64,000 nucleotides of DNA from Humulus lupulus (Eukaryota; Streptophyta; Magnoliopsida; Rosales; Cannabaceae), in the NCBI RefSeq assembly GCF_963169125.1, contig NC_084795.1, forward strand, positions 189,012,214 to 189,076,213, in the 5' to 3' direction. Position numbers and translations under genes: made by a program. Each line of letters begins with the position of its first letter. The stretch's first letter is position 1. Under the pieces are notes generated by a model, which searched no databases, was not told where the DNA came from, and worked only from the letters and a program-made list of their open reading frames with translations. Below are positions 660 to 64,000 of this stretch, one piece after another.

Positions 660-2936
660 TGTAACGACCCAAATTCAGTGTTTAGGCTTAAGGGCCTGGG
701 GAAGTGTGCCTGGAGGGCATGATGGGATTTTGTGTGTGACTTTAATGAGCTTAATGCATGATTACGATTTATTGCACGTTATGTGATTAGTTAATTAATT
801 GAGATGCACGACTATGTGAATTAGTATGCATGTAGACCTGATTGTCTTAGAATGAGCATGATTGTAATCTGGCCATGTTTGGGCATATCTGTGATAATTG
901 TACTATGTGAATGGTGCCATGTGAGTGCGATGTTTTTATCAGGATGCACGCATCGAGACGGTCCTAGTGAGCCATTTAGTCTAAAAGTCACAACGGGATG
1001 TTGTACCCGGCTCAGGTAAAGCCTAGGGGTACTTTGGGAATCTTATAAGTTGAGTTGAGAATGAGTGGTTGGTTATTGGTTATTGGGTAACTTGGGTAAC
1101 CATTTGTAACTGTGGTAGGTAACAAGTTTTAAGATGGAAAGTGATAGAATTGAAATAGAAGTGTAAAGACTTAAGTGCCCTTGAAGGTTTAGTTAGGAAG
1201 GATTATTAAGAAGGGGTAAAATGGTCTTTTGGCAAGGGTAATAGACAAAAGGCAGCTGGGATATAGAGGGGCACGGTTTGGAGTAGTGGGCATTTGAGTG
1301 TCTTGATAAAATTAGAAGAGAAGGAAAAGAAGAGGAGAGAAAGGCTAGGGCAAGCAAGAAGAAGAAGAAGAAGAGAAGGAGAAGTGGGAGTCTAGGAGGG
1401 GATCAAGGACTTGTGTGGATTCTTCATTGAGGTAAAGGTTTTATACATATCTAAGTATGGATTTTTGTTTTGATTTAAGGAATTTAAATGCCTAAGCTAA
1501 ACATTGTGGGGTTTTGGGGTTAGTTGCTGAAATTTGAAATCATAGGAGTGGATCTTGGGTGTGTTGATGTTTTGAATTGATTCTAGTGTTTATAGGGTGT
1601 TAGATTGTTCATGTAAAGTTTGGAATTGAGTTTTGTGGTTGAGATATGTGTTTGGGATGGTTTAAGGTGAGGATTAGAGAGTAAAATGGTGGGTTTTTCT
1701 GGGTTCGAAGGGTCGAGCCGCGGCATGGTTCTTTGTGAGCCGCAGCCCTTCGAAGAAGTGGTATGCTGATGGAGAAGGGCGGGCCGCGGCATGGCCCAAG
1801 CAATGTCGCGGCCCTTACCTGTTTTTGGGCCTTTGAGGGTTCTGTTTGGGGGCCATGCCGCGGCATGGGTGGCCTATGCCGCGGCGCTTAAGGGATTTTA
1901 GGATTTTAGGATTTTAGGCTTGGGAATTTAACCTAGGGTGCTCGGGGTTGAGCCTTTTACCATGTTTGGTGAATTTCAACGTTCCGAGTACTAGAGCTTG
2001 GCTTAGAAGCTCATTTAAGGTTGTTAAAAGTGTCTTTTGTGTGTTGTGACTAGGATTTTGGGAGAGGCTCGTGCTTGTGGACCGTGCTCGTGACCGTGGT
2101 ACTTTGGAAAGCACGGGATACAGGTAAGAAAACCGTAACACCCGAGTTTAGGGCATGGCCCCACTGTGTGATTGTAGGGCGTGGCCCCGGATTGTATTAC
2201 GTGCAAATGCTTAAACTTAAATGAACCATGATGTGTGTGAATGTTTATTTTGAATGTACTATATGTGTTATTATGATGAAACGAGCGGCAGAGGCCGGGT
2301 ACGGCATAGGCCGGGGCGGCCGTGGGCCGAAAGTAACACAGCACATGGGATGCTTATATTCAGGGTGGGACCCAAGGGATACATGAGTTATCCTCGCGGT
2401 GAGAACCGAAACTCCAGGCTTTGGTAAGGCCTTGGGAGCGGCATGGCCGTACTTGTTTATTATGGTGGTTTTCCTATGTATCAGTGAATTATTGCCAGCT
2501 ATTTACTTTGCATATGTTATGTGTTATTTGGGTTTTCTTGCTGGGCTTCGGCTCACGGGTGCTCCGTGTGGCAGGTAAAAGCAAGGAGTCAGTCAACCGG
2601 CCATGAGTATGGAGAGCGTGGGGGCGGCGCGTACATGTTCGGCCTGCCCGACTGCTTTGGTTGGGGGCATTTTGTATATGGCTGTATTTAACAATTCTTT
2701 TGATAGCTGATCAAGTGTAAATCTATTTTGAGTTGTAAATATTTTGTAAACCTTATTTTGGGATCCCAGATGTTTTATAATTAACGTTTTTAATGAAACT
2801 AAACATTTTCAAAGAGTACAGCCTTAAACTCTGGTTTATTCACACTTTTGGTTTTAGAAACCACTTGAGTCAATTAAATGCACAATTTCTGTTTTAAACT
2901 CACTTAGTAACGGCTCTAAGGTAGTAGGGCGTTACA
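660..2936 (+). mobile_element. Solo Tekay-type LTR (LTR A) with perfect 5-bp duplication
   Basis: A 2,277-bp LTR starting TGTAACGACC and ending GGGCGTTACA, flanked on both sides by GCTAA (655-659 and 2937-2941). There is no internal region, primer site or second LTR, so it is a solo LTR left by recombination between two LTRs. Features inside: three pairs of GCCGCGGC-type words (1717/1739, 1783/1805, 1857/1878), including the 16-bp palindrome CCATGCCGCGGCATGG at 1853-1868. The conserved CTTGCTGGGC...GCAGGTAA block lies at 2533-2580, its GT 361 bp from the LTR end. It sits inside the copia-type LTR and is therefore younger than it. Confidence 0.95.
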
Positions 2937-4630
2937 GCTAATCTTATTTATAGTGACGTAATCACAGTGGAATATAAATATGATTATATGATCAAAATAA
3001 GTTAGTCCTAAGATTAGTCAGTGCACAGGATTTACATTGACTCGCCAATCTTTGATATGATTTACTTACACATTACACTGTTATGTTCTTTCTAGAACAT
3101 TAGCAAAGTAGATAAGATCGAGTGTATTTGTTACATCGAATAGGACCGATATTGACAGTTGATAAGATAAGTAAACATACTGTTATTATCTATTCTAGTC
3201 ATATCATATAGTTGACCATAGGTCAATTCAATCTCAATTATGAGTGGTTAGTATTCTAACTGATTGTATTATTTGAGTTCTTTGACTTGTTCGTTACCAG
3301 CTTACCCTACGGACTAGCCCATACTTACATCTTGGGAACTCGGTAGTATAATTGAGTGGGAGTGTTAATCATTGATATGAACATCTATAGCTTCTAATGA
3401 AGAAGTCAAATGATGGTTTCCTTTTAGTTTAGTTCAAGGTGCTAAATGATAGAGATCTCATTTCAGTAATTAATATTAGTTTACTGAAATATCATTTATA
3501 AGGAACTAAGTGTTTTAAGGATAAAATACAGTGAGGGGTAAAACGGTATTTTATTTCTGTCTCATTGGAGAACATCTATAGAGGATTGAGTGAAAATTGT
3601 GGTTGTAACAATGGATAATTAATAGCGTATCTATACTTGTTATAGAGCGTTCTATGAATTCAAGAGTGTGATTCCGAGTCTATAGTGGAGTCACGAGGAA
3701 TTAATAGGTTAGTAAATTTATTTGTTAGATTTATGATAACCTATTGGAGCTTGATTTCATAGGCCCATGGTCCCCATTGTACCTTGGATAAAATCATCTA
3801 GATAGTCTCAATTAATTGATTTAATTATCAATTAGAATTATCAAAGTTGACCAGGTCAAATTTGGATAGTTTAACAGAGTTGTGTAATTTAGAGAAGAAA
3901 AGAGAAATTAGGGCAGATTTATTAATTAAGATAAATTGGTATATAAATTAATAAATAAGTTTAAATCAAGGTTCAAATTATAAATAATTAATTTGATAAA
4001 GGAGTTAAATAATTAAATCAATAGAAAATAATATAGGCCTTGATTTTAAGTCCAATGGGCGTATAATCAAATGGGAAATTTCACGGGCCTAAAGCCCATG
4101 ATAATTTCGACCTAGGGCTCCAAATTGGCTATTATTTTATTTATTTTTTAATTAAATTAAATGGCCTAATTGAGTCTATAAAAGGATTGCTTAGAGAGAA
4201 CTAAAAAGTTCAGATTTCTGAGATGACAGATAAGTTTAATCACTGGTTTTCTAATAGTTTTAGATTCTCTCTAAACACAAGTCCTTTTCTAAGACTCTTT
4301 GTGATTTTCTCTTCTTCTCTATGTATCTATCTTATGTGTTGAGAATTTCCCACTCTAGTCTAGGTGGTGCTAAGGATACTTTGGAAGAGTGTGAAGAAAA
4401 TAGAAGATCGGTTCAGTTTCTTGATAATACTCTGCGACAGAACGGATACAAGAGTTAGAGAAACTGAAGGAAAGACTCTTTCATTACACTGCATATATTG
4501 TAAGTATTCTTGTCTTTTTTTCTCTTTGAATTCAATTTTAGAAAACATGTTCTAGGTTATCTCATATTAATTTGTTTAATATTAGATCTACATGAAAATA
4601 AATAAAGATCATGTATAAGTTTTCCCAACA
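2937..4630 (+). repeat. Ty1/copia-type LTR, right piece
   Basis: Begins with the second copy of the GCTAA duplication and runs to ...GTTTTCCCAACA at 4630. A TATA-like CTATAAAAGG occurs at about 4177-4186, followed by a CT-rich leader. After 4630 the text switches to Tekay gag, with ACAGC (4631-4635) as the likely target duplication; its partner is outside the window. I see no coding sequence. The short open frames at 4360-4555 are LTR sequence and not genes. Confidence 0.6.
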
Positions 4631-5425: not shown

Positions 5426-5460
5426 AGGAAGAGCCGAAACAGAGTGATAGTCTCGCTCCT

Positions 5461-6131
5461 GCCAGAATATTTACCTTGACCCAAACTGAGGCTGAGGCTA
5501 GCCCCTCGGTCGTGACAGGTCAGATTTCTAGTGTTGGTTCTTCTTTTATTGGATTGATTGACTCAGGGGCTTCTCATTCATTTGTTTCTGCTAGATGGAT
5601 AGATTAGCTTTGTAGACCTAGTGATTTGTATGCTAGGGGATTTAAGACTTTGTTGCTGACTAGAGAACTGGTAGTCTCTAGGAGGTGGGTTAGAGCGTTG
5701 CCAGTAGAGATAGATAGTAAGGAGTTGTCTGTGGATTTGATTGAGTTAGCAATGGATGACTTTGATATGATCCTAGGGATGAATTGGTTATCGAAGTATG
5801 AGGCGACAATTGATTGCAAAGGTAGGATTGTGACCTTTGAACAGGAAGGGGAGGTACCATTTGTATTCGTTAGGACAATGAGTGGACCACGAGTACCTAT
5901 GATTTCAGCATTGAAGGCTAGAGACCTGATGCAGGAGGGTTGCATAGGATTCCCAACAAACATTGTGGATACTTCTAGAGTTGTTTTGGTTGGACTAGAG
6001 GAGACCAGACTGGTATGTGAGTAACCAGATTTATTCCCCGCAGATTTGCTAGGGTTGTCGCCACACCGGGAGATCGAGTTTGTCATAGAGTTGGCACCGG
6101 GGGTGAAGCCAGATCTAGGACACCTTATATA
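5461..6131 (+). pseudogene. pro: T2 aspartic protease and linker
   Basis: The retroviral-type aspartic protease of the polyprotein. The active-site signature LIDSGASHSFVS is seen at about 5557-5592 with D-S-G intact, then a stop at about 5605. Reading continues in the same frame through DFDMILGMNWL (5758-5790), the usual hydrophobic block after the flap. Further stops occur near 6022 and at 6130. The linker before RT (ELAPGVKP) is recognisable. The protein cannot be made in one piece. Confidence 0.8.
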
Positions 6132-7571
6132 ATGGCTCCAGTAGAGTTAAAGGAACTGAAGATTCAGTTGCAAGAGTTACTGGACGCGGGATTCATCAGA
6201 CCGAGTTTTTTGCCATGGGGAGCTCCAGTGTTGTTCGTCAAGAAGAAGGATGGATCTTTAAGAATGTGTATTGACTACAGGGAATTGAACAATTCGACCA
6301 TTAAGAACAAGTACCCACTACCTAGGATCGACAACTTGTTTGATCAGCTACAGGGGAAGACAATGTCCTCTAAGATTGACCTTCGGTGAAGCTATCAGCA
6401 GTTAATGATTAAAGAGGAGGACATACCAAAGACCAATTTTCGCACAAGGTATGGACACTATGAATTCCTAGTTATGTCCTTTGGATTAACCAACGCCCCA
6501 GCAGCCTTTATGGATTTGATGACCACGGTCTTCAACAACTATTTGGACAAGTTTGTGATCATGTTCATTGATGACATACTGGTGTACTCTCAGTCAGAGA
6601 CAGAGCACGAGCATCATCTACATTTAGTATTACAGTGGTTGAGGGAGCATAGGTTATATGCTAAGTTCCGCAAGTGTGAGTTTTGGCTACCGCAAGTAAC
6701 ATTTCTAGGTCATATTGACAGTAAGGAGGGGATTCTATTTTACCGAAGTAAGGTTGAGGCAGTGAGGGATTGGCCCAGGCCGAGTAGTCTACCAAAGGTT
6801 AGGAGCTTTTTGGGATTGGCAGGGTACTATCGGCGATTCGTCAAGGGATTCTCCAGAATAGCCACACCATTGACTAAACTGACACGCAAGAAGACTAAGT
6901 ATATATGGACTAACAAGTGTGAGAACAGTTTTAAGGAGCTGAAGCGGCGACTAATTACTGCTCTAGTATTGAGTCTGCTGTCAGACAATAAGAAGTTTGT
7001 AGTCTATTATGATGCTTCCATACAGGGTTTGTGGTGTGTACTGATGCAAGCTGGAAAGGTAATAGCCCACACGTCGAGATAGTTGAAGGAGTATGAGTAG
7101 AGGTATCCCACACATGATCTGGAATTAGCAGCGGTGGTATTTTAACTTAAGGTTTGGAGACACTGCTTATATGGCGAGAAGTGCGAAATATACACTAACC
7201 ATAGAAGTTTGGCTGGAGTTGGTAAAGATTACGATTGTGATATTCTATATCATCCTGGAAAGGCCAATGTGGTGGCCGACGCGTTGAGTCGGAAGGGCCC
7301 AGAACAGTTGTTCAGTTTGAGGCAGATGTCAAATAGGTTAGCTGAAGAGATGACTAGAGCAGGTATAGAGTTTGTGGTTGGTCAGTTAACCAATATCATT
7401 CTTCATTCTATGCTCCTTGAGAAGATCAAGGAGGCACAGGGGGAGGATCCCCTGTTGAGAAAGCACAAAGAGAGTGTCTTAGCGGGAGTGGCTAAATACT
7501 TCTCTATTTCAGAGATAGGACTACTGAAGTACAAGGGTCAGATTTGTGTTCCGTTGGATTTTAGTATCTGA
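6132..7571 (+). pseudogene. pol: T2 reverse transcriptase and RNase H
   Basis: RT begins with [15 protein letters not shown] and shows [12 protein letters not shown] (about 6255-6290), [13 protein letters not shown] (about 6480-6518) and the catalytic FIDDILVYS (about 6565-6592). RNase H follows with VVYYDAS (about 7000-7020) and ends in [16 protein letters not shown] (about 7251-7296). Stops interrupt at 6387, 7080 and again between 7080 and 7208. The RNase H core around the expected YTDHKSL is altered: NHRSLAG is seen at 7198-7215, so catalytic Asp is replaced by Asn and about 20 residues are missing before the WLELV region. Confidence 0.85.
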
Positions 7572-8840
7572 CAAGAGATTTTAGATGAGTCTCAAACCAC
7601 TCCGTATTCTTTATATCCAGGTACAACAAATATGTACCGAGATTTGAGAACTATGTATTTGTGGCTGGGAATGAAGAGGGATGTGGTGGATTATGTGGCC
7701 AAGTGTTTGACTTGTCAGCAAGTAAAAGCTAAACATCAGAGGCCAGCAGGGTTGTTGCAACCACAAGGGATTCCAGAGTGGAAATGGGAGGATATCACCA
7801 TGGACTTCGTGGTTGGATTGTCGAAAACCATGGGACAACAGGATTCAGTGTGGGTGATTGTGGATAGGTACACCAAGTCAGCCCACTTCTTGCATGTTAG
7901 GACAACTTATATAGTTGAGTAGTATGTTGAATTGTATGTGAAGGAAATTGTACAGTTACATGGGGCTCCGAGTTTGATAGTATCTGACAGGGACCCCACC
8001 TTCACTCAAGTTTTCGGAGAGCCTGGAGAAGGCTATGGGCACACAGTTGCGGTTTAGTACTGCTTATCATCTCCAGAAGGATGGGCAGTCTGAGAGGACA
8101 ATTCAGATACTGGAGGATATGTTGCGAGCCTGCGTGTTGGATTTTGGGGGATTGTGGAGTAAGTATCTCCCTTTGATAGAGTTTTCATACAATAATAGTT
8201 ATCAGGCGACTATCAAAGTGGCTCCCTATGAGATGTTGTATGGGAGAAAGTGCAGATCACCCATCCATTGGGATGAGATGGGTGAGAGAAGGTATTTAGG
8301 CCCTGAGGTTGTTCAGATGACCAACGAGGCGATTGAGAAGATTAAAGCTTGAATGCTCGCCTCACAGAGTTGGCAGAAGAGTTACTCAGACTTGAGACAT
8401 AGGACTGTAGAGTTTCAAGTCAGTGACCATGTGTTTCTCAGAGTTTCTCCCTTGAGAGGAGGAAAACAGTTTGGTGTACAGGGCAAGCTAAGCCCTAGGT
8501 TCGTTGGCCCCTTTGAGATTCTAGAACGGGTTGGAGAGGTAACTTACAGATTGGCGATGCCTCCAACTCTAGCAGGGGTTCACGATGTGTTTCACATATC
8601 CATGCTCTGGGAGTATGTATCAGATTCTACGCACGTGTTGAGTTATGGGAACTTGGAACTGGATCAAGATTTATCATATGAAAAGAAGCCGATTCAGATT
8701 CTTGACTGAAAGGATAAAGTCTTGTGGAGCAAGACCATCATCTTAGTAAGAGTGTTGTGGAGAAACAGCAAAGTGGAAGAGGCAACTTGGGAACTTGAGA
8801 TAGATATGCGGGATCAGTATCCAGAGTTATTCAGGTAATT
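7572..8840 (+). pseudogene. pol: T2 integrase and chromodomain
   Basis: Integrase joins element cDNA to host DNA. The zinc-binding CX2C is seen as KCLTCQQVK (about 7700). The D,D-35-E residues are all present: ITMDFVVGL (about 7796), VSDRDPTF (about 7981) and DGQSERTIQ (about 8080). A stop at 7919 and a frame change between about 8000 and 8035 break it, and another stop falls at 8350. The C-terminal chromodomain (HDVFHISML, then IQILD and WRNSKVEEATWELE) ends at about 8838. In this lineage the chromodomain is thought to guide insertion to heterochromatin. Confidence 0.85.
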
Positions 8841-8858
8841 TTGAGGACGAAATTTCTG

Positions 8859-8873
8859 TAAGGAGGGGATAGT
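8859..8873 (+). promoter_or_regulatory. T2 polypurine tract
   Basis: TAAGGAGGGGATAGT directly precedes the LTR start TGTAGCG. This is the expected position and composition of the plus-strand priming site. The same AAGGAGGGGAT core stands at the matching place in R1 (minus strand, 19214-19232). Confidence 0.85.
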
Positions 8874-11139
8874 TGTAGCGTCCCAAATTTTCTAATAAGG
8901 CTTAGGGCCTTGATTAGTGTGCTGGGAGGGAAATAATTGATTTAATTATGTTAATATGTGAATTTAATGATTATGTGATTAGAAATGCATGTTTAGGTGA
9001 ATTTAATATGCATGTGGGCCCCATTTGGCTATTAGGGGCATATTTGTAATTTGAACCCGTTGAGGGTGTGATTTTGCGCTCTGTGCGGTGTTTCCGGCAT
9101 GAGGAGATCATGTCCTGCGGTGTTAGCACAGAGTCACAGAATTGGTGTTTAGTTGAGAGATTGGTAACTACTAGTAACCTTAGATTTTATGTTGTTACTT
9201 AAATAATAAGTTAAAGGTGGAATTTTTTCATTAGGTTGAAAGGGCCTAGATACCCTTGTGAGCTAGCCTAGAACTATGTTAGAGGGAAGGGTAGAATGGT
9301 CTTTTGGGAAGTAATTGGATAACATTTGGCTGAGGGAAAGCCATAATCGTTTAACACAATCCCATTGATACTCATTTGGTTTTTAGGGACTCTAGATGGA
9401 GAAAAACCAACAACAAGCTTGAGGATTCTGGGTTTTGAGGAATTGGAAGTGAAGTTCAAGTTGTGGATAGGGAGTAGCAGCCATTCACACTTAGAAATCT
9501 TGAAATTTAAGAAGAGGTAAGCATTTCATTTCTGTGGTTTAGGTCTTTTATGTTGTTCTCGAGGAATATGATTTTTTTATTTCTGTATTTGGGTTTTGAG
9601 ATGATGTTTTGGGGAACTTGAGCTTGGGAGTTTGAGTATTAAAGCTTGGAGTGGCATTGGAGGCAACCTAGGGTCGAAAATATGTTCCAAAGGTAAGGAT
9701 TCCATCAAGTTTTGAAAAGTTTCTTGGTTGGTTTAAGTTTTTGTAGAATCTTAAACCATTGATTGAAATTGAGTTTAGGTGTGAGTTTGGATTGGGTTTT
9801 AATGCATATATGTTGTGTATGTGGTGTTATTTGGAGTTTTGGGACCCTTTGGGACTTGGGTACACTTGGGGCATGGCTTGGGTGAGTTTTAGCTTAGGGA
9901 AAAATGGTGGAAAAGCCTAGTTTTCTTGGTTCTTGTAGGAGAGTCGCTGTGATGTTCTTCCAAGTCGCAGCACTGGGAGGATCCAGGGCAGGGAGCCCTG
10001 GCTGGGTGCCGCGGCGCCTGTATGGCTGAGCAACGGCGCTAGGCCATTTTCAGGGCCCTTAAATTTGTGTTTTTAGGGCTTAGGCCCAGGGGGCTCGGGG
10101 GATGATTTCACCACCCCGTGTGGGAAAATGGGAGGTCCCGAGAGCACAGGATTGGTTCCGGGGATCAATTATAAAATCAGGTAGTAACGAGAACGTTACT
10201 TGTGGTGTGTGAATAGGTTACCGTTGGGACTCAGGAGAGGATCATCCTCGGAAGTGGTGATTGCTTGCCTAACTGCTAGCACTCAGATTAAAGGTAAGAA
10301 TACTATTGTACTTGTAAGGCAGAGCATGGCCCTATTATTTGTATTATAGGGTGTGGCCCTATTGTTTAAACTGCAGGGCATAACCTTACTGTTTATATTT
10401 AGTATGTGTTTATATATCTGTCAAAGTTATGCTATGTGATGCATGTGTGTGAGTGAACGACGAAGGCCAGGAACGGCTAAGGGGCACAGAACGACAAAGA
10501 GCCGGGAATGGCAAGGGGTCGAGATCGGCGTTGAGCACGCGGAGTGTAGGTTGTTAGGGTAAAACCCTTCTTGGGTGTTGCAGTCACCCTCTCGGAAAAG
10601 ACCGTGAACCCAGGGCTTGGTATAGTGCTTGGGACGATGTTGGCCGCTATGTACTTAGTTTGGTGGTTGTTTTGTTTTGTTAGTTTGGTATAGTGAATTG
10701 TCATGTATGTATTATATGCTTTATGTTGAGTTTTCTTGCTGGGCTTCGGCTCATGGGTGCTCTATGGTGCAGGTAAGGGCAAGGGAAAGGTCGACCAACC
10801 ATGAGGACAGAGAGCGTGGAGCAACGGGTACATGTTCGACCTGCCTTGCTGTCACGACCAGTGTGTTTTTAAGAAAATGTAAAGTATTGGTTGTTTTGTC
10901 GCCTAGGTCGACCATACTTGTATTTTTGGGTTGTAAAGTATTTCCTAAACAGTATTTTGGGATCCCAACTGTGTAACTTTTCCAACACTTCAATGAATAT
11001 CCAGGTTTTATAATTAATAATGTTATTAAACCAGTTTTGTTTCAGTTTAATCACACTTTTAACCTAAAACCTCGATTAGCGAGCTAGTGGCACATTTTTA
11101 ACTCACTTAGTAATGACTTTAAGGAAGTAGGGCATTACA
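8874..11139 (+). repeat. T2 3' LTR (LTR B)
   Basis: A 2,266-bp LTR from TGTAGCGTCCC to GGGCATTACA. Two word pairs lie in the U3 part: GTCGCTGT 9943 with GTCGCAGC 9964, and GCCGCGGC 10008 with GCAACGGC 10030. The conserved block TTTTCTTGCTGGGC...GTGCAGGTAAGG is at 10731-10777, its GT 366 bp from the LTR end. No 5' partner is present for a divergence estimate. Confidence 0.9.
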
Positions 11140-13559: not shown

Positions 13560-14929
13560 TGATGAGTGCATGTTTTATGCACTCAAATATTGACTTTTAT
13601 CCTTAGAATGGTTTGCTTTTCCTTAATTTATGTGTAGATTTGATGAGTTTCATTTCAGTGTGCATGAATTGAGTTTTAGGAGTTTTGAATGTTATTTTGG
13701 GTGTTCAAGTCAGAGAATGATGCATTACGTCGCTTCTGAGAGGCAAGAAGTTGCTAAAATTCATGAAAAATTAAAACCTATAAAAGTTCAGGCGACATGT
13801 CGCCTGACATAAGGCGATGCATCGCCTGGCATATGGCGACACGTCGCTTGGGATATGGCGACACATCACCAGTTGCGCCACAAAAATAGGAAAACGTGTT
13901 TTTCCACAAGTTTTTCACTTGAATTAAAAAGTAGGACGACTAAGGAGATTTCTGGAGACTAGGGCACGACCACAACACACATATAAAGGAAAAGAAACAC
14001 ATTTAGAAGGGAGAGACTCATTGGAGAAGGATCTAAGAAGTGAATCAAGCAATATCAACGAAGTTCTTTAGCCTTCTTTGTTTTCCTCTCTATTTCTTTG
14101 TTCTTTTTAGATAATTACAATATATTTGAGAATATAAACCACATCATGTGTGGCTAATTTCCTTATTTTTCTAGGGTGTAGATGGATCTCTTGACATGAT
14201 TTTATTTCTATAATTTAATGCAAAGTCTATTTTAGTCCAATATTTTTCTTGTGTTCTACTTTGAATCATTATTTCTTAATTGTAATTTTCATATTTTTCT
14301 TTATAGTATATGAATTATAATTAGGATTGTATTTAGATTGTGAAATTTATTACTCGAGAGGGAAACTTTCAAACAATCCGGCAGCAGGTAGAACAACTTA
14401 GGTTTATGTGAGATTGAGAGATAAGCATAAATCTAGGTAACCGAGATAATTCTAGATTGTGAAATTGAGAGGTGAAATTTTTAGGATTATTTCTAAAGTG
14501 AAACTTAATGAAGGTAAGGATAAATGGTCATATAGAGATATAGGATAGGTATCACTTGCACATTCTTTATGCGGCACTCGAGACAGGGTATAGAGATAAT
14601 ACAATGCTCTAGGATTTTGAGCATATTGGATTGATTTAGGTACGTTAATGATTAGGGGGTAAGATTGTTAGAGAGTGAAGTTGAAATCTTAACAATTGTT
14701 ATTATGTTGAGTCTATTCACATTTAGTTATATTTTTTTTAAGATTCATAGTTATTTATTATGTTACTTCTTGATATCTTTTGAAATTGATTGCTTAGATA
14801 ATGATAGGATTTAGTATTTTCTATATTTAATTGATTTTAATCCTTGTGGGACAATATCTGTCGTTAGACTACTTTACTACTTGTTTGATTTGTGCATGTG
14901 CAAGCATATTCATTTTTTTTATAACAACA
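13560..14929 (+). repeat. Athila-1 3' LTR
   Basis: About 1,370 bp from TGATGAGTGCATG to ATAACAACA; the start could be 2 bp to the left. Two TATA-like sites are seen, TATAAAAG at 13780-13787 and ATATAAAGG at 13981-13989. Between them is a four-copy array of GGCGA palindromic words at an exact 22-bp period: 13791, 13813, 13835 and 13857. The right boundary is inferred from the switch to Tat-1 coding text after 14929. Confidence 0.75.
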
Positions 14930-18992: not shown

Positions 18993-19213
18993 ATATCTAC
19001 AAATATGCCCTCGACGGGTCAAAATTACAAAAAATTCCCTTCTAATAAGAAACGGGCTCACATGCATGCTTAATACATCTAAACATGCAAATATAGTCAT
19101 ATCATAATATAACTCACATAATCATGCATATAATCACATAATTAAATCAATTATTGTCCTCCTGGCCTCCTAATCAAGGCACTAAGCCTTATTAGAGAAA
19201 TCGGGACGTTACA
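18993..19213 (-). repeat. R1 3' LTR, terminal 221 bp
   Basis: On the minus strand this is the first 221 bp of the LTR, starting TGTAACGTCCCGATTTC at 19213. It matches the outer end of the 5' copy (26592 leftwards) with scattered differences. The rest of this LTR is displaced to the left of Tat-1. The adjoining purine tract on the minus strand is AAGGAGGGGATAAT (19214-19232 region). Confidence 0.85.
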
Positions 19214-19232
19214 ATTATCCCCTCCTTACAGG

Positions 19233-20660
19233 AATTCGTCCTCAAAATTTTACCTAAACAACTCGGGATACTGATCACACATATTGGACTCCAATTCCCA
19301 GGTTGCTCCTCGACCTTGTTGTTCCTCCATAATACCTTAACGAAAGGTATGGTTTTATTCCTCAGGACCTTATTCTTCCTATCTAATATCTTGATTGGTT
19401 GATCTTGATAGGATAAATCTGTTTGCAGCTCCAAATCTTCATAACTCAATACATGAGTCTCATCTGATACAGACTTCTGAAGCATCAAAATATGAAACAC
19501 ATTGTGTACTGCTGACAATTCCAGAGGTAAGGCCAATCTATAGGCCACCAAACCAATCCTCTCTAGGATCTTAAAATGTCATACAAATCTAGGGCTTAAC
19601 TTTCCCTTCTTCTCAAATCTCTTAACCCCTTTCAATGATGAAACTCTAAGGAAGACATAGTCTCCCAATTGGAACTCCACGTTCCTGCGCTTTGGATCTG
19701 AATAACTTTTCTATCTACTCTGAGATGAGCATCCGAGCTTTGATCTTTTTAATAGCCTCATTGGTCATCTTAACTGCTTTAGGACCCAAATATTTCCTTT
19801 CACTCATATCATCCCTGTGAATGGGCGATCTACATTTCCTACCATACAACATCTCATAAGGGGCCACTCCAATGATCGATTGATAGTTGTTATTGTAGGA
19901 AAACTATATCAAAGGCAAATACTTACTCCATGACCCTTCAAATTCCAGCACACATGCTCGCAGCATGTCCTCTAATATTTGAATCGTCCTCTCAGATTGA
20001 CCATATGTCTAAGGATGATAAGTGATACTATATTTCAACTGTGTACCCATAACTTTTTGAAAACTTCCCAAGAACTTGGAAGTAAATGTGGGGTCCCAAT
20101 CTGACACAATCGACTTCGGAGCCCCATGAAGACGCACTATCTCTCCCACACAGAGATTTGCGTACTGGTCAACTGTATAAGTCGTCCTCACTAGTAAAAA
20201 GTGAGTTGATCTGGTGTAACGATCCACAATAACCCACACCGAATCATGTTGACCCACTATCCTTGGCAACCCAACCACAAAATTCAATGTGATGTCCTCC
20301 CATTTTCACTATAGGATATCCAAAGATTGTAGTAGCCCTGCTGGTTTATGATGCGCGGCTTTGACTTACTGACACGTCAGGCACTTAGCCACATATGCAG
20401 TTACATCTCTCTTCATCCCAAGCCACCAGTATAAAGTCTTCAAATCATGATACATCTTCGTGGTGCCTGGATGCAAAGATTAAGGGGTGGTATTGAATTC
20501 ATCCAGAATCTCACGTCTGATAACAACATCCATCGAAACACAGATTTGACCTTTGTATCTCAGTAAACCCATAGTTGATATTGTATAGTCCTTAGCCACT
20601 CCAACTAGGACGGCCCCTCTAATCCTCATCAGTTGTTGGTCCCTCAACTAACTTTCCTTT
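19233..20660 (-). pseudogene. pol: R1 integrase and chromodomain
   Basis: On the minus strand: CLTCQ zinc-binding region (about 20375), core domain and chromodomain (LELSAVHNVFHILML then LQTDLSYQDQPIKIL, 19400-19530). The first catalytic position reads ITLNFVVGL near 20285, Asn in place of the Asp seen in T2 and R2. The second is VSDWDPTF (about 20095). The frame breaks after MGTQLKYSITYHP at 20009, and the catalytic-Glu region follows in pieces. Several stops occur in the IN C-terminus (19560-19990). The copy is inactive. Confidence 0.85.
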
Positions 20661-20701
20661 ATTCTCTCCAAAAGAGTAGACTGCAGGGTGATGTTCACTA
20701 A

Positions 20702-21990
20702 CTAATCTACCACTAACTCTATTCCTGCTCTGGTCATATCCTTTGCCAATTCCTCGGATATCTGCCTTGAATTGTATAATTGTCTCGGACCTTTTCGACT
20801 TAAGGCATTTGCCACCACGTTGGCTTTCCCTGAGGGGTATAGGATTTCACAGTCATAATCATTCACCAGCTCTAACCAATGCCTTTGTCTCATGTTCAAA
20901 TCCTTTTGTGTGAAGAAATACTTCAAGCTCTTGTGGTCAGTGTATATATCACACTTCTCACCATAAATGTAATGCCTCCACACGTTTAGTGCAAAGATCA
21001 CCATTGCTAACTCTAGATCATGCGTAGGGTACCACTGTTCATATTCCTTCAACTGACATGATGCATAGGCAATCACCTTTCCTGCTTGCATAAGGACACA
21101 ACCTAAACCTTGTCTTAAGGCATCGTAGTAAACTACAAACTTCTCCTGGTCTGTTGGAAGACTCAAAATTGGAGCGGTATCTATCTGACCACACAAAATT
21201 CTGGTTTTTTCGTGTCAGATCCGTCAGTGGAGTAGCAATCCTTGAGAACCCTTCCACAAAGTGCCTATAATAACCTGCCAATCCAAGGAAACTTTTGATT
21301 TCTGGGGCATTTCTTGGCCTTGGCCAATCTCTGACTGCCTCAATCTTAGCTGGATCCACCTTGATTCGATATCTACTAAAAATGTGACCAAGGAAAGTCA
21401 CTTGTGGTAACCATAACTCACATTTCTTGAACTTCGCTTACAGTCTGTGTTCCCTCAGTCTCTGTAAAACCAACCTGAGATGTTGTTCATGCTCTTCCTC
21501 CGACTGAGAATAAATTATAATATCATCGATTAAGATGATTACAAACCGATCCAAATAATCTTTGAACACCTTGTTCATCAGATCCATAAAATTTATTGGG
21601 GCATTAGTTAGACCAAATGACATAACCATAAACTCATAATGCCCATATCTTGTGAGAAATGCTATCTTCAGTATATCTTCCTCCCTGATCTTCAATTGGT
21701 GATAACCATATCAAAGATCTATCTTTGAGAATACCGTCTTACCCTGCAACTGATCAAATAGGTCATCTATCCTTGGCAAAGGATACTTATATTTAATGGT
21801 TAGCTTATTCAGTTCCCTGTAATCATTACACATCCTCAAAGAACCGTCTTTCTTCTTTAGAAATAGGATTTGCGCTCCCCATGGCGAGAAACTAGGCCTA
21901 ATAAAACCCAAGTCTAACAACTCCTGTAATTGTTCCTTTAGTTCTTTCAACTCTGTTGGGGTCATTATGTACAGTGCCCTAGACACTAGC
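20702..21990 (-). pseudogene. pol: R1 reverse transcriptase and RNase H
   Basis: RT reads [17 protein letters not shown] from 21968, [25 protein letters not shown] and the catalytic LIDDIIIYS (about 21520). RNase H has [15 protein letters not shown] (about 21130), [13 protein letters not shown], the catalytic [15 protein letters not shown] (20897-20950) and [17 protein letters not shown]. Breaks: stops near 21437 and 21710, and a frame change between 21039 and 21196. The intact YTDHKSL region gives a reference for the altered versions in T2 and R2. Confidence 0.85.
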
Positions 21991-22640
21991 TACGTCCCTG
22001 GTGCCAGTTCAATAACAAACTATATTTCTCTGTGTGGCGGCAACTCTGGAAAATCTTCTGGAAACACATCCAGAAACTCACAGACTAGTGTGGTCTTTTC
22101 TGGTCCCACCAGCACGACCTGAGTGATATCCACCACAATGGCAAGGAATCCTATGCAACCACCTCGCAATAGGTCTCTAGCCCTCAACGCAGATATCATA
22201 GATACACGGGGTCCATGCACAGTGCCAACAAATACAAAGGGATCCTCGACCTCAGGCTCAAAGGTTACCATATTATTTTTTTTGTCTGTGGTTGCCCTTT
22301 ACTTAACTAACCAGTCCATGCCTAAAATCATGTCAAAGCCATTCATGACTAACTCAATCAAATCAACTAACAATTCTCTGCCATCCACTGTCACTGGCAA
22401 TGATTTGACCCATCTCCTCGAGACTACTTACTCCCCAATGGGAAGTAACTTCCCAAAACCCACTGCATAGTAATCACAGGGCCTACATAGCCTATCAATT
22501 ATTCTATTACAAACAAAAGAGTGTGCAGCATTAGAATCAATCAAAACAGTATAAAAGGTTTCAACACTAGAAAGTTGATATGTCACTACTGAAGGACTAG
22601 CCTCAGCCTCTAACTTAGTCAATGTGAACACTCGAGCTGG
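21991..22640 (-). pseudogene. pro: R1 protease and linker
   Basis: The protease signature reads VLIDSNAAHSFVCNRII (about 22500-22555). The Gly after D-S is Asn here, unlike D-S-G in T2, so catalysis is unlikely even without the stops. The linker MVTFEPEVEDPFVFVGTV to LPPHREI (22271-22020) is open. The DFDMILGMDWLV-type block lies between 22290 and 22350 in a broken frame. Confidence 0.8.
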
Positions 22641-41161: not shown

Positions 41162-41175
41162 ACTATCCCCTCCTA

Positions 41176-42630: not shown

Positions 42631-44040
42631 CTACAAGGTAATATTGGCCAATTGGCCTACCACCAGCTCTATCTTCGTCCTAGTCATCTCATCAGCTAAT
42701 TCTCTTGAGATCTGAATAGAACTAAATAACTGCCCCAAGCCCCTCCGGCTCAATGCATCAACTACAACATTGGCTTTTCCTGGGTGATACTGAATATCAC
42801 AATCATAGTCCTTAACTAACTCCAGCCAACGCCTTTGTCTCATGTTCAAACTCTTATGGTCAGTGTATATCTCGCACTTCTGGGTGAAGAAGTACTTCAA
42901 ACTCTTATGGTCAGTGTATATCTCGCACTTCTGGGTGAAGAAGTACTTCAAACTCTTATGGTCAGTGTATATCTCGCACTTCTCCCCATACAGATAATGC
43001 TGCCAAACCTTCAGTGCGAATACCACTACTGCCAGCTCCAAATCATGGGTAGGATACCACTGTTCATACTCCTTCAGTTGCCGCGATGCATAAGCTATAA
43101 CCTTCTCATTCTGCATCAACACACAGCCCAAACCCATCCTCGATGCATCATAGTATACTACAAACTTTCCTTCTTCTGAAGGAAGACTCAGTACAGGTGC
43201 AGTAATAAGTCGTCGCTTCAACTCCTGGAAACTGTCCTCACACTTCTCCGACCAAACGAACTTCTGGTTATTTCTTGTCAACTCTGACATTGGAGAAGAA
43301 ATCTTTGAGAATCCCTCTACAAATCGCCTATAATAGCCTGCCAACCCAAGAAAACTATGTACCTCTGACGCATTCCTTGGCCTTGGCCAATCTCTCACCG
43401 CTTCCACCTTGGACGGATCCACCTTAATCCTCTCTGCACCCACAATATGCACAAGAAAGGTCACCTCTAGCAACCAAAACTCACATTTCTTAAATTTAGC
43501 ATACAACTGGTGTTCCCTTAATCTCTATAAGACCTGTCGAAGATGTCGCTCGTGCTCTGCCTCCGAACTGGAGTATACCAAGATGTCGTCGATGAAGACA
43601 ATGAAATCCTTGAACACCCTGTTCATTAGATCCATGAAAGCTGCTGGGGCATTGGTCAAACCAAAAGACACGACCAAGAACTCGTAATGTACTGCGTTTG
43701 GAAGGCCGTCTTCAGTATGTCCTCATCCTTGATCCTCAGCTGGTGATAACTAGATCGAAGATAAATCTTTGAGAACACCTTCTTTCCCTGCAGCTGATCG
43801 AACAAGTCATCAATCCTTGGTAGAGGATACTTATTCTTAATAGTCAACTTGTTCAATTCCCTGTAGTCTATACATATTCTCAGAGTCCCATCTTACTTCT
43901 TAACAAACAACACTGAAGCGCCCCATGGAGAGTAGCTAGGCCTGATGAACCCCAAATCCAGAAGTTCCTGCAGCTGTATCTTCAATTCCTTCAACTCTGC
44001 TGGTGCCATTCTATATGGTGCTCTTGATACTGGCTCTGTG
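42631..44040 (-). pseudogene. pol: R2 reverse transcriptase and RNase H with internal triplication
   Basis: [19 protein letters not shown] (44010 leftwards), [15 protein letters not shown], a small deletion with frame change near 43690, [13 protein letters not shown], and catalytic [10 protein letters not shown] (about 43580). RNase H is open for 291 codons (43506-42634): [28 protein letters not shown], then [17 protein letters not shown] twice and a third time shortened to [10 protein letters not shown] before NMRQRRW. The residues KYFFTQKDL normally before NMRQ are missing in the last copy. The catalytic Asp is thus present three times. Confidence 0.9.
42848..42983 (-). repeat. 51-bp tandem triplication in RNase H
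   Basis: Copies start at 42848, 42899 and 42950; the spacing is exactly 51 bp (17 codons), so the frame is kept. The first two are identical by eye; the third diverges after about 34 bp into the normal GEK upstream context. R1 carries a single unit at the same place (20897-20950). Confidence 0.95.
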
Positions 44041-44639
44041 CCCGGTGCTAACTCAATAACAGACTGAATCTCCCTACGTTGTGGCAACCTCGGTGGCTCC
44101 TCAGGAAATACATCTAGAAACTCACAAACCACCCTGGTCTCACTCGACCCCGTTGGCAACAACCTGGTAGTGTCCACAACACTAGCCAGAAAACCTATAT
44201 ATCCACCTTGTAACAAGTCTCTGGCTCTCAATGCAGATATCATGGGTACGAGGGGTCCACACACTGCACCCACAAAGACAGAAGGATCCTCGCCCTCAAG
44301 TTCAAAAGTCACCATCTTCTTCCTGCAGTCAATAGTAGCCCCATATCTGACCAACCAGTCCATCCCTAAGATCATATCAAAATCCTCCATATCTAGCTCA
44401 ATCAAGTCAACTGAAAGCTCCCTACTATCAACCATCACTGGCAGTGTCCTAATCCATCTCCTAGAAACTACCAGTTCCCAGTAGGCAATAAAGTCCTAAA
44501 CCCCACAGTCCGATACTCACTAGGTCTACACAGTATATCAATCACTTTACTATAAACAAAGGAATCTATAGCACTAGAATCAATCAATACAGAAAAAGGA
44601 GAGTTGGCGCTAGAAAGCTAACCTGTCACTACCGAGGGA
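44041..44639 (-). pseudogene. pro: R2 protease and linker
   Basis: The signature near 44550-44600 reads LIDSSAIDSFVYSKVID, so D-S-G is D-S-S here. A 181-codon open stretch from 44438 follows: DFDMILGMDWLVRYGATIDC, KKMVTFELEGEDPSVFVG and ELAPGTEPVSRAPYR, leading into RT. A frame change lies near 44470 before MMVDSRELSVDLIELD. Confidence 0.8.
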
Positions 44640-45472
44640 CTAGCCTCGGCCTCTGCCTGCATCAAGGTGAACACTCGAGCTGGAGTCAAGCTGTCCACCT
44701 TTCTTCAGTGTTGGGAAATCCTTCTTGAGGTGTCCCACCGTGCCACATACATAGCAAGCCTTGGCCCGACATTCGCCCTGATGGTGTCTTCTACACCTCA
44801 GGCACTCCAGATAACTCCTCCATGGTTCACCGCTGCCCTGACAGCCACCCTGACCACCCCAACCCCTCCTATCAGGACCAGTAGCGGTCGAAGTGTCAAG
44901 GGTCTTTCTCTTGAAATCACTAGGGCCTCCGCCCGTACCTGACCCAGAATAAGGAGGCACCACCCTGTGACCCTCGCGCCTCACAGCACTTTCCTTCCAA
45001 ATTTTGTTCTCCGCTTCCACAGTGGTAAGAGCCTTCTCAACGTCCTGGGCATAAGTTGTTCCTCTAGGTACCGTTGCAATCCTAACATCCCGGGCTATCA
45101 TAGCATTAAGCCCCAGAATAAACCTGTCATGCCTGGCTGCATCAGTAGGCGCAAGGTCTGGTGTGAACTTCGCAAGTCTGTCAAACTTCAGGGCATATTC
45201 AGTTCTGTCATGCTGCCCTGAACCAATCCTACGAACTCATTAACCTTTGCTGCCCTGATGGCAAAATTATAGTACTTCTGACTGAACAAATCTTTAAATC
45301 CTTCCCAACTCAATGTAGTGACATCCCCGGTCTGTGAGGCCACTTCCCACCAGATGCGGGCATCCTCTCTCAACATATACGTGGCACAGGCCACTCTATC
45401 ATGTCCCTCTATCCTCATGAAATCCAGGATAGTAGTAATCATAGTCAGCCATTGCTCGGCCTTCAATGGATC
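44640..45472 (-). pseudogene. gag: R2 gag, capsid and zinc knuckle
   Basis: From 45466 the minus strand reads KAEQWLTMITTILDFMRIEG, YMLREDARIWWEVAS and the FSQKYYNFAIR capsid block, with a frame break near 45190. The second stretch (45101-44643) holds MIARDVRIATVPRGTTYAQ, an RGG/SG-rich hinge, CLRCRRHHQGEC and the knuckle CYVCGTVGHLKKDF. The last zinc ligand Cys is Phe. The N-terminus lies across LTR E at 62399-62701. Confidence 0.85.
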
Positions 45473-59070: not shown

Positions 59071-59536
59071 AGGAACGAAATCGTTTCGAATTCCACAAGT
59101 GGACGGTACCGATCTTCCCATACCGCATGCATCAAATCCAACGGTCGGGGATGAAGTGCCGGTCCCATTTAAGACTCCTCGGATGGGAATAAAGTATTTA
59201 TTTCCCATCATTATACCATCTCGGGCCTAGTGCACCATTAAATACCGTCAAATCACTACTTAGACGCCTGACGCACGCACACTCAGCCAGTCGCCTCACG
59301 CACACGTCTTGGTCACAGAGCCATTCCCTGCATGACGCGTGGCCCTTGCCACACTTGAGTACTTGAGTTCAAACAGAAGAAATTTCCTTATTTTTTTTTG
59401 TACTGACACTCAGGCGGGAAAAAGGAACCCTTCCAGGAACACAGGAGGTGACCCCTCGCCTACTCTAGAGACCAGAACACCCAGAGGACTGTACAAGCTC
59501 CCGGACCTCTCAAGCCCCGTGACCTTGGGGGGTAAA
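59071..59536 (+). other. Tat-3 3' spacer and polypurine tract
   Basis: Upstream region of the antisense gene, ending with CCTTGGGGGGTAAA (59523-59536) immediately before the LTR. TTCCTTATTTTTTTTTG at 59387-59400 is a T run. No gene seen. Confidence 0.65.
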
Positions 59537-60424: not shown

Positions 60425-62398
60425 GGGTCAATTATTGGGTAATATGAATGTTATTTGATGATAAATTGGGAATATTTGAGATTAGGATGGAATTCTGGAA
60501 GTTTTGACTATAATGTCCCCGGGGGTGTTTTCGGGACCCCGAGCACTAGGTTTTATTTGAGGTTACTTAAGCTTGAAGTAGCTTGTCAGATAGAACGTAC
60601 GTTAGAAAAATCCTCTCGTTCTCTTCCCGTAGTTCATTTTCACCATTCGAAGTGTTTTTGAAGATATATTGAGTTCTAGGAGTTGGAATCAAGCGAGGAT
60701 CGAGGCATAGCGATCCTAGGAAAGATTAGAAGCTTCTTGACCGAAGGATTTGACGAGAAACAACCTAATCGAAGGTAATCTAAGTTTAAAGTTTTGAGTT
60801 TTTAGAGTTTCTAACCTTTGAATTGGACTTTGTAAATCGTTGAGTTTTTGGTTTGATTGAACCTTGGGTTTTGATGGTTTTGGAGCATGGGGAAGCTTGG
60901 GAACTTTAATTTGATGATTTGGGAATGTTTAGGCATGATTTTGGAGGCCTTGGGATGTTGGAGAACGTGTTTGGGAGTGGCTCTGGGTTGGGGGTCGCGG
61001 CCTTGTTCTTGGGCACCGCGGCCCTAGCTTGAAGAAGCAGATGGTCGAGTTTGCTCTTGCTGGGCGCTGCGGCCCTTGCTTCAGAGGTGGCTGGGGGCTG
61101 CAACCCAAGGTGCCAGGGCCGCGGCTCTTGAGCAGAGTTGAGCCCATTTGGGTGTTTTGGCCCTGGAAACATGGTTTTAGGCCTCGGGATCATTCCTACT
61201 ACCTGGATTAGTTTGGATTGATGTCCCAGAGGCTAGATATTGGTTTGGGAACCTATGTTGATCATTTTTATTGATGGTATCCTATATTTGGTTATGACTA
61301 GGTGATGGCTAAAGGACTAAAGGTTGATCGTTCTCAAGGATCGTTCTTTTATTCATTCTAGCTCGAATCTGAGGTAAGAAAACTGCACCCTGTGTATATA
61401 TGACATGCGTATTTGTTATTGAGGCATGTTGATTGATAAATGTGGACATGGATTGCATATTAAATGCTAGTGAATGTTGCTTACTTGTATATGGCACTGA
61501 CTAGTCAGCGATACTGACCTAAGAGTCAGAAACGACAATAGCGTCCTGAACGTAGGGCCGAATGAAGGTTAGATCTAATCGATATCAGTGTTGAATGACT
61601 CTAAGGCATTAACACTGGACCGACCCTAAGGTCGATGAACTTATAAGCGCTTGGCTAGTCTAAGACTAGATACTGAGAGCCAGGGCCAAAGGCCTAGGTG
61701 ACCGTTTGTCACATGGCTAGGGAACGATGCTCCATAGTTATGACTCTAGAGTCCTGAGGAAGGTTATGTTGGTGACTAATCACCATGCACCTATCCTGTT
61801 TAAGCTAGTGAAATGCTCACTTATCTGTTAAACCCTAGTGACCCTACTGTAACATGGCTAAAGGGAATTGTCCCCATCTTAGTGACTTTTGCAACTGTCA
61901 CCTATCTGTTTTGGACTGAAAGTCCTGAATGATTATGATGATCATTGTTGATATTATATCATGCTATATTGTGTTTTCTTGCTGGGCCTCGGCTCATGGG
62001 TGCTATGTGGTGCAGGTAAAGGGAAAGAAAAGCTCACCCAGCCTTGAGTGGAGAGCTTAGGTGGTGATGTGTACATATGCAGCCGCTTGACCACCATGGC
62101 CAAGGAGTTCTTAGAGGAACTAGGGGGTTTACCCTATTTTGCCGCTTAGGTCGGCGGGTTTGTAAATTTGAAACAGTAGTGACCATTTTGAGTTGTAAAT
62201 AACTTGTAAATGTTTTGAATAGCTCATGAGCAGTTTGTATACTTAATGAAATATATCCTTTCCTTTTTATTGTTTTCAACCTTAACCTGTTAATAACACT
62301 TAGAACACGTTTTTAACCAAAGGACTCGGGTAGCGGGTCAAATTTTTGGTTCACCGTTCACCGTAACTATTCTGGGGTAACCAAGGCGTTACACAGGT

Positions 62399-62701: not shown

Positions 62702-62784
62702 GCTATCCAAGTCAATCTGCAATCAACGACTCGGCAATCAAACCATGATGACAGGGTAAAAGCTTCTCCAAAATCCCCCAAAGG
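62702..62784 (-). other. R2 leader remnant
   Basis: Text between the gag start and LTR G. It lacks any TGGTATC primer-site word, which means the true 5' LTR/primer junction lies beyond LTR G. AAAGG (62780-62784) would be the left target duplication of LTR G. Confidence 0.6.
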
Positions 62785-64000
62785 TGTAACGCCCTACTTC
62801 CTTAGAGCCGTTACCAAGTGAGTTTTAAGACAAAACAGTGCAATGAACTCGCTAACCGAGGTTTTTAAAACAAAAGTGTGACTAATAAAAAGGGTAAGGC
62901 TGTAATCTTTGAAAATGCGTCGTTTCATTAAAACTTCTAGTATTAAACATTTGGGATCCCAAAATAAGGTTTGAGAACTATTTACATCTTGAAATAAGTT
63001 TACAATTGATCAGTTATAAAATCATAGATTATTACAGCCATTTCTCGAATAAACCCCCAACCAAAGCAGTCGGGCAGGCCAAACATGTACGCGTCGCTTC
63101 ACGCTCTCCGTACTCATGGTTGGTTGACACAGTCATTGCCCTTACCTGCAACACAGAGCACCCGTGAGCTGAAGCCCAGCAAGAAAACTCATGCAGAACA
63201 TAACATATGCAATTTATACCATTTATCATATCAGATAATCCACAGATAAACAAGTCAACCATTAGACTAAGCAAACACGGCCATGCCGCCCCAGAAGCCT
63301 TACCGAAGCCTGGGGTCTCGGTCCTCACCGTAGGGATATCACACGTATCCCTTGGGTCCTACCCTGACCATAAGCATCCCATGTGCTAAGTGTTACTTCC
63401 GGCCCCGCTGCCGTTCTTGGCCTTGCCGCCCTCGGCCATAGCCGTTCATTTCACTATAATCACACATATAGTATATCTCAAAATAACATTCAAACACATA
63501 TCAATTCATTTAAATCTGCACCCTAACATGAAATGCAATATAGGGTCGTGCCCTGCAATCATCTCATCATGCAACATGCAATATAGGGCCGTGCCCCGCA
63601 ATCACACTATGGGCCCATGCCCTATCCTACGGGTGTTATAGTTTTCTTACTTGTCGATTTGATAGCTTAGATCACCTGACTCCTTGAGCACGATCCCACT
63701 CGAGCCTTAGCGCACACCTAGGCACAAACATAGGTCAAAGTCAACACCAAACCCCAAGTCCGAATACCTAGCCTCGGGACCAATCCCGAGCCCCCGGGAA
63801 GTCCCAAATCCCCAAAACAAAGTGGCGAAATCGAGCCCCGAACCCTAGGTCCAAATCCCTCATCAAAAACCCAAAAATCCACTTCTGTGAACAGTGCAGC
63901 GCTACAGCGCCCTAAAGAGGGCACTGTAGCGCTACAAGCAGAACACACCCCCCAGAACAGGGGCTAGCGCTACAGCGCCCACTGACTAGCGCTGTAGCGC
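62785..64000 (-). repeat. Tekay-type LTR (LTR G), runs off the window
   Basis: Plus text starts TGTAACGCCCTACTTCC. On the minus strand it is the 3' part of an LTR of the same family as LTR A, whose end reads GGTAGTAGGGCGTTACA. The conserved block is at 63142-63187 (GT 359 bp from the end). AGCGCT/AGCGCC words at 63898-64000 form 22-bp pairs (63906/63928, 63974/63996). It is not R2's 5' LTR: its sequence differs from LTR D and no primer site adjoins it. Confidence 0.88.

Follow-up and report, generated by a model that had tools for sequence, protein, structure and literature searches.

Two questions of interest about plant retrotransposons are how their promoters are switched on and why CpG-rich palindromes should be retained across lineages in a CpG-poor genome. 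Both are raised by a 64-kb stretch of Humulus lupulus DNA (contig NC_084795.1, positions 189,012,214 to 189,076,213 of assembly GCF_963169125.1, a genome of 2.48 Gb in 121 contigs), referred to below as the window. Eight long terminal repeats (LTRs) in it, namely A, B, C, D, E and G, a solo LTR and that of an element called Athila-1 (a name taken from an earlier note on this DNA), carry clusters of short GC-rich, mostly palindromic words set in pairs 21-22 bp apart. The paired-word core of this pattern is real and genome-wide, and it is probable, to judge from sequence, that each array is a cis-regulatory region bound cooperatively by dimers of a putative DNA-binding protein.

The words lie where the earlier note had placed them, and its observation as a whole is partly confirmed: most of the pairs that it listed are sound, but five (9943/9964, 10008/10030, 25533/25555, 25610/25632 and 61044/61066) are weak, the partner being decayed or another word. 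Its near-fixed spacing survives comparison with dinucleotide-shuffled sequence. The interval between the starts of neighbouring pairs, given there as mostly 64-74 bp, was found to be 68-76 bp for the CGCTRYAGCG class (10 cases) and mostly 72-74 bp, with some cases at 61-64 bp, for GCCGCGGC. Amongst repeated CG-containing GC-rich 8-mers of the window there were seven pairs at 21 bp and six at 22 bp, whereas 10 shuffles averaged 0.00 pairs per distance and never exceeded 1; additional peaks occurred at 64 bp (nine pairs), 43, 69 and 108 bp (four each) and 66 bp (three). In 12 clusters from the window and from sampled loci, words with no more than one mismatch to GCCGCGGC were separated by steps of 20-22, 29-31, 39-44, 50-52, 64-66, 73 and 128 bp. 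Four of these clusters (L001-L004) had been retrieved using the 22-bp pattern and are a biased sample, and L004, the partner LTR of L002, was left out of the step test (43 steps) and of the 22-pair spacer comparison described below. Eight words were counted in L001 and eight, one of them decayed, in the solo LTR, with three to seven in the other 10 clusters. A 160-kb sample, consisting of 16 stretches chosen blind to the word, yielded word pairs 19-22 bp apart in five stretches (L007, L010, L015, L019 and L020). The ratio of observed to expected CpG is 0.83-1.02 at arrays A, C, D and the solo LTR, and 0.60 for the window.

Across the genome GCCGCGGC is present in 150,910 copies, and pairs of it 8-38 bp apart (0-30 bases between) occur at 34,764 places, compared with 15 for the reversed control pattern. 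Separate searches gave 7,812 pairs at exactly 22 bp (control 0) and 7,342 at 23-36 bp (control 10). In counts of listed spacings the second-strand rows of palindromic patterns were removed first. Amongst 50 listed pairs 32 were at 21 bp and five at 22 bp (37 of 50), the remaining 13 being at 23-32 bp, so the spacing peak claimed for the window recurs in other copies, where 21-22 bp dominates the listed pairs. Of the 99 copies at the head of the list, 74 had a neighbouring copy within 150 bp, as against some 2% for words scattered at random. The palindrome GGCGCGCC, the only control that matches GCCGCGGC in both composition and CpG number (two), has 16,110 copies and forms 62 pairs over the same gaps; for two others of the same composition the figures are 3,239 copies and 15 pairs (CGGCGCCG) and, with three CpG, 2,076 copies and five pairs over the same gaps (CCGCGCGG). 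GCCGCGGC is thus commoner than these three by factors of 9, 47 and 73, respectively. Over the pair searches other than that for the strict GGCGAC..GTCGCC form (see below), reversed-pattern controls gave 0-28 places against 1,261-34,764 for the words themselves. Chance or base composition as the cause is ruled out by the shuffles together with the same-composition palindromes.

A non-palindromic variant and other word classes show the same preferred spacing. Direct pairs of this variant, GTCGCGGC (4-33 bases between; 12-41 bp), numbered 1,639 on one strand and 1,656 on the other (control 28 and 14), and 84 of the 100 listed were at 21-22 bp, with 95 of the 100 spacers distinct. Inverted GTCGCGGC pairs occur at 1,261 places (control 2), 45 of the 50 listed being at 21-22 bp and 49 of the 50 spacers distinct; since inverted pairs hold the same spacing as direct ones, orientation is irrelevant and it is distance that matters. 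The longer range (42-72 bp) yielded 1,843 and 1,877 places, against 22 and 19 for the control, and 100 listed pairs fell at 43-44 bp (7), 50-53 bp (43), 64-66 bp (14), 71-72 bp (25, at the edge of the range) and elsewhere (11), with none at 56-61 bp. CGCTRYAGCG, the word of LTR G, was paired at 13,227 places (12-42 bp; control 0), 48 of 50 listed pairs being at exactly 22 bp, with one each at 25 and 26 bp. The Athila-1 word, GGCGANNNNTCGCC, was paired at 8,186 places (control 0), with 49 of 50 listed pairs at 21 bp and one at 44 bp. Its stricter GGCGACNNGTCGCC form (GGCGAC..GTCGCC; 14-44 bp) was found at 37 places per strand (control 0), and the 73 distinct places listed, whose spacers vary, were distributed over 22 bp (41), 21 bp (5), 44 bp (20, at the edge of the range) and elsewhere (7). 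Several of the 44-bp pairs enclose another palindrome, CTAGGGTTTCT-GAAACCCTAG or similar (e.g. G000:C1:231706808-231706865), which we take to be an inverted telobox-like motif. Pairs of GGCGATATATCGCC, e.g. around G000:C1 4463441, have near-constant 7-base spacers such as CCCTGTA and lie 21 bp apart; they are the 49 of 50 pairs listed for the 8,186 places of the Athila-1 pattern.

An important consideration is whether the spacing is simply a repeat period, the arrays being decayed minisatellites of 21-22 or about 72 bp. The Athila-1 array is indeed a true 22-bp tandem repeat in which the spacers are similar too (Tandem Repeats Finder score 92), the spacers of the solo LTR share an ATGG start, and arrays of the VANC type expand by tandem repetition according to the accessible part of PMC5735166. 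However, over 22 pairs drawn from window and loci together the 12 bases following both words were 33% identical (null 27%) and the 12 preceding them 36% (null 29%), a small excess; the words themselves had been picked by similarity and their own identity carries no weight. As the bases beside the words exceed the null only slightly, tandem duplication of recent date is not chiefly responsible, Athila-1 excepted. Furthermore, inverted pairs retain the spacing and 144 of 150 listed spacers are distinct within their lists. A simple 22-bp minisatellite, which holds for Athila-1, is insufficient for the GCCGCGGC class; tandem duplication in general is a very unlikely explanation, and one limited to the birth of arrays rather than to what maintains the words. 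The word itself reaches beyond its core: in 126 distinct GTCGCGGC-class spacers 246 of 252 ends have a pyrimidine at +2 or a purine at -2, and by this flank rule it extends to RnGYCGCGRCnY. In 13 partner words 16 of 18 mismatches were C-to-T or G-to-A, as decay of methylated cytosine would give, although five of these changes are the second-base C-to-T present in GTCGCGGC, itself a regular variant.

The distances are suggestive of the DNA helix. Successive steps of the 99 listed GCCGCGGC words gave R=0.81 at 10.4 bp (48 steps), the mean cosine without the steps of 20-23 bp was 0.66 at 10.5 bp (25 steps), and eight separate peaks other than 22 bp differed from uniform distances with p=0.003. 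The distances near 30, 41-44, 51-52 and 72-74 bp are in rough agreement with whole turns, which is suggestive rather than proof. Closeness to multiples of 10.4 bp is also what would be expected if GC-rich words every few turns set the rotational position of nucleosomes, but a signal of DNA shape would not account for the gulf, in copies and in pairs, between GCCGCGGC and palindromes of the same composition, nor for the flank rule, and this explanation has very little probability.

A palindrome that can be read either way, a distance strict to about 1 bp and free spacer bases are together fitted by protein dimers spanning two turns; two dyad sites at a fixed, near-whole-turn spacing with a varied spacer, as found here, are what a cooperative dimer-of-dimers site comprises. 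Each word (RnGYCGCGRCnY, GCGCTRYAGCGC or GGCGANNNNTCGCC) would be a palindromic site for a dimeric sequence-specific protein, and two sites 21-22 bp, or two helical turns, apart would be occupied by adjacent dimers that together form a dimer of dimers. Pairs recurring 3-5 turns further on would place the entire array on one face of the DNA. The earlier note had proposed a protein reading one face; this part of its interpretation, which overall is partly supported, remains the best reading, with the whole-turn fit as its inferred component. The array would then be the upstream control region of the element's U3 promoter and, in a single family of Athila type, would control the internal promoter of an extra gene. 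A promoter role is likely from the position of arrays within LTRs and ahead of this second gene, as in Sireviruses. A TATA-like site follows the array in B, Athila-1, C, the solo LTR and E (270 bp off), and none was seen past array A or beside D, by a simple pattern with no chance control.

An alternative noted earlier is that the cause lies in RNA, 21-22 being the length of small RNAs: the palindromic words would pair in the transcript to give hairpins, RNA dimerisation, a structural signal or, as in maize Sireviruses, hot spots for small interfering RNAs. Most of the eight arrays do fold more strongly than shuffled sequence (z between -0.9 and -8.0 over 16 strands, and below -3 for 12 of them), direct GTCGCGGC pairs could also base-pair with two G-U wobbles (by reading), and small RNAs are drawn to Sirevirus palindromes, as stated in the accessible part of PMC10760457. 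But palindromes fold regardless of their role, an RNA loop needs no 1-bp precision, and hairpins leave the distances of 44, 51 and 72-74 bp unexplained. The spacer ends beside the words do not pair above chance, the first four positions pairing less than chance (p 0.94-1.0) and the fifth with p 0.31. An RNA stem extending into the spacer is ruled out by this lack of complementarity. A small-RNA cause is not needed, and RNA structure as the explanation of the arrays is unlikely.

The identity of the elements bears on who might encode the binder. The earlier note held that the surrounding sequence was not similar between families, which is not the case: LTRs A, B, C, D, E and G are joined by blocks 69-85% identical, which adjoin the clusters or sit a few hundred bp away (A-D 79% and 74% at either end of the array, C-E 72%, B-G 70%, A-G 77% and others). 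These six can be aligned through a common downstream block (mean column identity 53%; A-D 78%), and they also match L010, L015 and L020 from the blind sample. On this sequence evidence, six of the eight are homologous LTRs of elements that we take to be chromoviruses of the Tekay lineage, and because of this homology the case made against shared descent fails for them. It retains some force in that the paired word is common to another lineage and that LTR G, homologous to the rest, bears a different word class at the same spacing. Between the solo LTR and the others only the words and one 22-bp stretch matched, and Athila-1 gave no match.

The other lineage is represented by L001 and L003, 91% identical copies of one family in which the array (within 64-1900 and 91-1840, respectively) lies outside any LTR, between an integrase open reading frame (ORF) and an ORF of PF20167 (putative plant transposon protein), and is followed by a pyrimidine-rich leader, resembling an internal promoter. 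Their integrase is only 23-28% identical to the chromovirus integrases of the window (bits 52-79), an identity so low as to indicate a lineage other than chromovirus, and 29-30% identical to the Tat-type integrase (bits 160-171). The lineage is presumably Athila and the PF20167 ORF presumably env-like. In the window an ORF with part of the same domain is probably the extra downstream gene of an Athila-type element. L002 and L004, 99.7% identical over 1.49 kb, are read as the LTR pair of a single element that has a tRNA-Asp-type primer site and a GTGTGGGGGAATT tract, landmarks which we assume to be Athila-type; the word occurs in 22-bp pairs within the leading third of the LTR (element sense), between landmarks resembling the primer-binding site and the polypurine tract (PPT). 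A 66% match had raised the possibility that they belonged to a Tat element, which is ruled out, as they are near-identical LTRs of another, adjacent element. The arrays therefore occur both in LTRs and before an extra gene, in elements with very different integrases.

With the word shared between lineages, a host-encoded binder is favoured and is more likely than an element-encoded one. The latter would be an anti-silencing or regulatory protein resembling VANC, for which the word would be the address, word class and protein having changed together. The study of VANC targets is reportedly that of Hosaka et al. 2017. According to the accessible part of PMC5735166 the targets are short repeated non-coding motifs that co-evolve with VANC, and a similar arrangement here would agree with the differing word classes of homologous LTRs at constant spacing and with the position of the L001/L003 array before the PF20167 gene. 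However, VANC21 motifs share one orientation, in the same part of that source, and orientation is free here. A homologue search with the PF20167 ORF of the window found none, which says little as the database may hold few plants. A VANC-like protein is made less likely by words shared across lineages, and is altogether a rather improbable explanation. A tentative extension of the dimer reading is that separate Ty3/gypsy lineages share one lattice (21-22-bp pairs repeated 3-5 turns on) in which an LTR can swap its word class across the whole array; a protein family with one tetramer geometry and several word specificities might then be involved, the word class perhaps serving as an address where host and element compete over regulation or silencing.

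A number of observations weigh against cooperative binding on one face of the DNA. Most of the spacing lists are the first places on contig C1, and the 49 GGCGATATATCGCC pairs at 21 bp are near-identical copies of one family. Autocorrelation of CG-CG dinucleotides in the window did not give a peak at 21-22 bp, and in the 160-kb sample two tandem arrays (77, 23, 118, 54 and 100 bp) dominated the raw autocorrelation of words. The helical fit depends on few distinct peaks, the best period varying from 9.9 to 10.9 across subsets: it is 10.2 over all 200 distances, 10.8-10.9 for the non-22 steps and, when the list of 42-72 bp is taken by itself, 9.9-10.0 (R 0.55, against 0.52 at 10.5). A distance of 44 bp is 4.2 turns and one subfamily uses 23 + 28 bp; a subfamily with spacers of the CACTGG type (G000:C1:6759288-6759368 and similar) has these steps, which sum to 51. 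The flank rule is broken in the TGCCGCGGCA subfamily (L001-L004), and the high CpG ratio of the arrays is equalled in the LTR of a Tat-type element without word pairs. Finally, the similarity among spacers exceeds that among column-shuffled ones (0.435 vs 0.396; 0.460 vs 0.395), 63 of 69 13-base spacers chain at 69% identity, and a TTCTT/AAGAA core is present in 45 of 150 listed spacers; this core and the similarity above shuffled spacers indicate that many pairs are distant relatives rather than independent inventions. The recurrent core reads TGTTCTTG/CAAGAACA in many pairs, and similar spacers occur in the window in LTRs A, B and E.

The features of the window are collected in Table 1. No word pairs were seen in the LTR of its Tat-type element, hence the paired-word system is not universal. 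Inside this element there is also a 69-bp tandem repeat of 3.6 copies, starting TCCGCGACC, at 53570-53820.

Table 1. Word arrays, promoter-like landmarks and element remains in the 64-kb window
Feature	Position	Strand	Details
LTR A array	1717..1885	+	GCCGCGGC-class words at 1717/1739, 1783/1805, 1857/1878; steps 22, 44, 22, 52, 21
Chromovirus-type pol remains, A-B region	5488..9066	+	RVT_1, RT_RNaseH_2, SH3_Tf2-1
LTR B array, decayed	9943..10037	+	9943/9964, 10008/10030; exact word only at 10008
TATA-like site, LTR B	~10170		TTATAAAA
ORF with part of PF20167	11186..11824	+
Athila-1 PPT-like site	12961		GTATGGGGGAAGT
Athila-1 array	13791..13870	+	four words of GGCGA-NNNN-TCGCC type, last two imperfect; period 22
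Athila-1 TATA-like site	~13982
Chromovirus-type pol remains near LTR C	19008..22610	-	RT_RNaseH, SH3_Tf2-1
TATA-like site, LTR C	~25413		TTTATATAC; immediately downstream of array in element sense
LTR C array	25460..25640	-	GTCGCGGC at 25460/25482/25610 and GCGC-type words
Solo LTR array	38605..38836	+ (assumed)	GCCGCGGC at 38627, 38677, 38698, 38741, 38762, 38806, 38828; decayed GCCACGAC at 38605; steps from 38627: 50, 21, 43, 21, 44, 22
TATA-like site, solo LTR	directly past array		TTTTTATAAGG
LTR D array	39944..40118	-	39944/39964, 40016/40037, 40089/40110; flanks homologous to LTR A
Chromovirus-type pol remains, LTR D element	41104..44653	-	RT_RNaseH, RVP_2, SH3_Tf2-1
Tat-type element, 14.6 kb	45796-60424		LTRs 98.9% identical; RVT_3 and integrase; long antisense ORFs 54536-58401
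LTR E array	60994..61126	+	60994/61015, 61066, 61097/61118; 61044 weak
LTR G array	63880..64000	-	GCGCTRYAGCGC-class words at 22-bp distance; reaches window end; LTR homologous to A

The fixed lattice and the defined words make the question of promoter activation a testable one. If the proposed reading is true, tens of thousands of word pairs in this one genome would constitute a large pool of binding sites, which could act on neighbouring genes.

Amongst publications naming both GCCGCGGC and retrotransposon, none concerned words in LTRs, judged by the title and the start of the abstract; one study reportedly treats palindromes as insertion targets. The nearest mechanistic parallel is with STAT5 tetramers on tandem GAS sites, where, in the accessible part of PMC4990345, two palindromic dimer sites likewise have their centres about two turns apart, at 20-21 bp and rarely at 22 bp. 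STAT5 is, however, an animal protein with another motif and with half-turn peaks too, making this an analogy of mechanism and not of family. The targets of VANC21 in VANDAL transposons resemble the present arrays in that a single short motif is densely repeated in non-coding regions of transposable elements and differs among related elements, but as far as the accessible part of PMC5735166 goes they have the same orientation and grow as tandem repeats, unlike the palindromic, orientation-free words with varied spacers described here, whose inverted pairs mostly keep the spacing.

The closest likeness is to the motif termed RM in the LTRs of Sireviruses, which are Ty1/copia elements (Bousios et al. 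2010, PMC2829016), and to the maize Sirevirus palindromes (Bousios et al. 2016, via PMC10760457). In the accessible parts of these sources RM is palindromic and CpG-rich, is situated 5' of the TATA box and also ahead of the env-like gene, and is termed Sirevirus-specific within the copia set compared. Common to both systems are a palindromic CpG-rich LTR motif in several copies and a word that varies between elements; a TATA box nearby and extra copies ahead of an env-like gene may be shared too. The Sirevirus palindrome is present in at least eight copies per element, the three to eight words given here being counted per cluster, and no spacing rule for RM is reported in the accessible part of PMC2829016. 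Unlike RM, with its CGG-CCG core, the words here are GCCGCGGC, GCGCTRYAGCGC and GGCGANNNNTCGCC, with cores CCGCGG, CGCTRYAGCG and GGCGANNNNTCGCC, set in pairs at a fixed 21-22 bp, and the hosts are Ty3/gypsy chromovirus and Athila-type elements: they have Ty3/gypsy-type reverse transcriptase or RNase H with SH3_Tf2-1, and the integrase of L001 and L003 matches the gypsy integrases of the window. Because of these other lineages and the strict lattice, the paired words are of the same kind as the Sirevirus motifs but a distinct variant of it.

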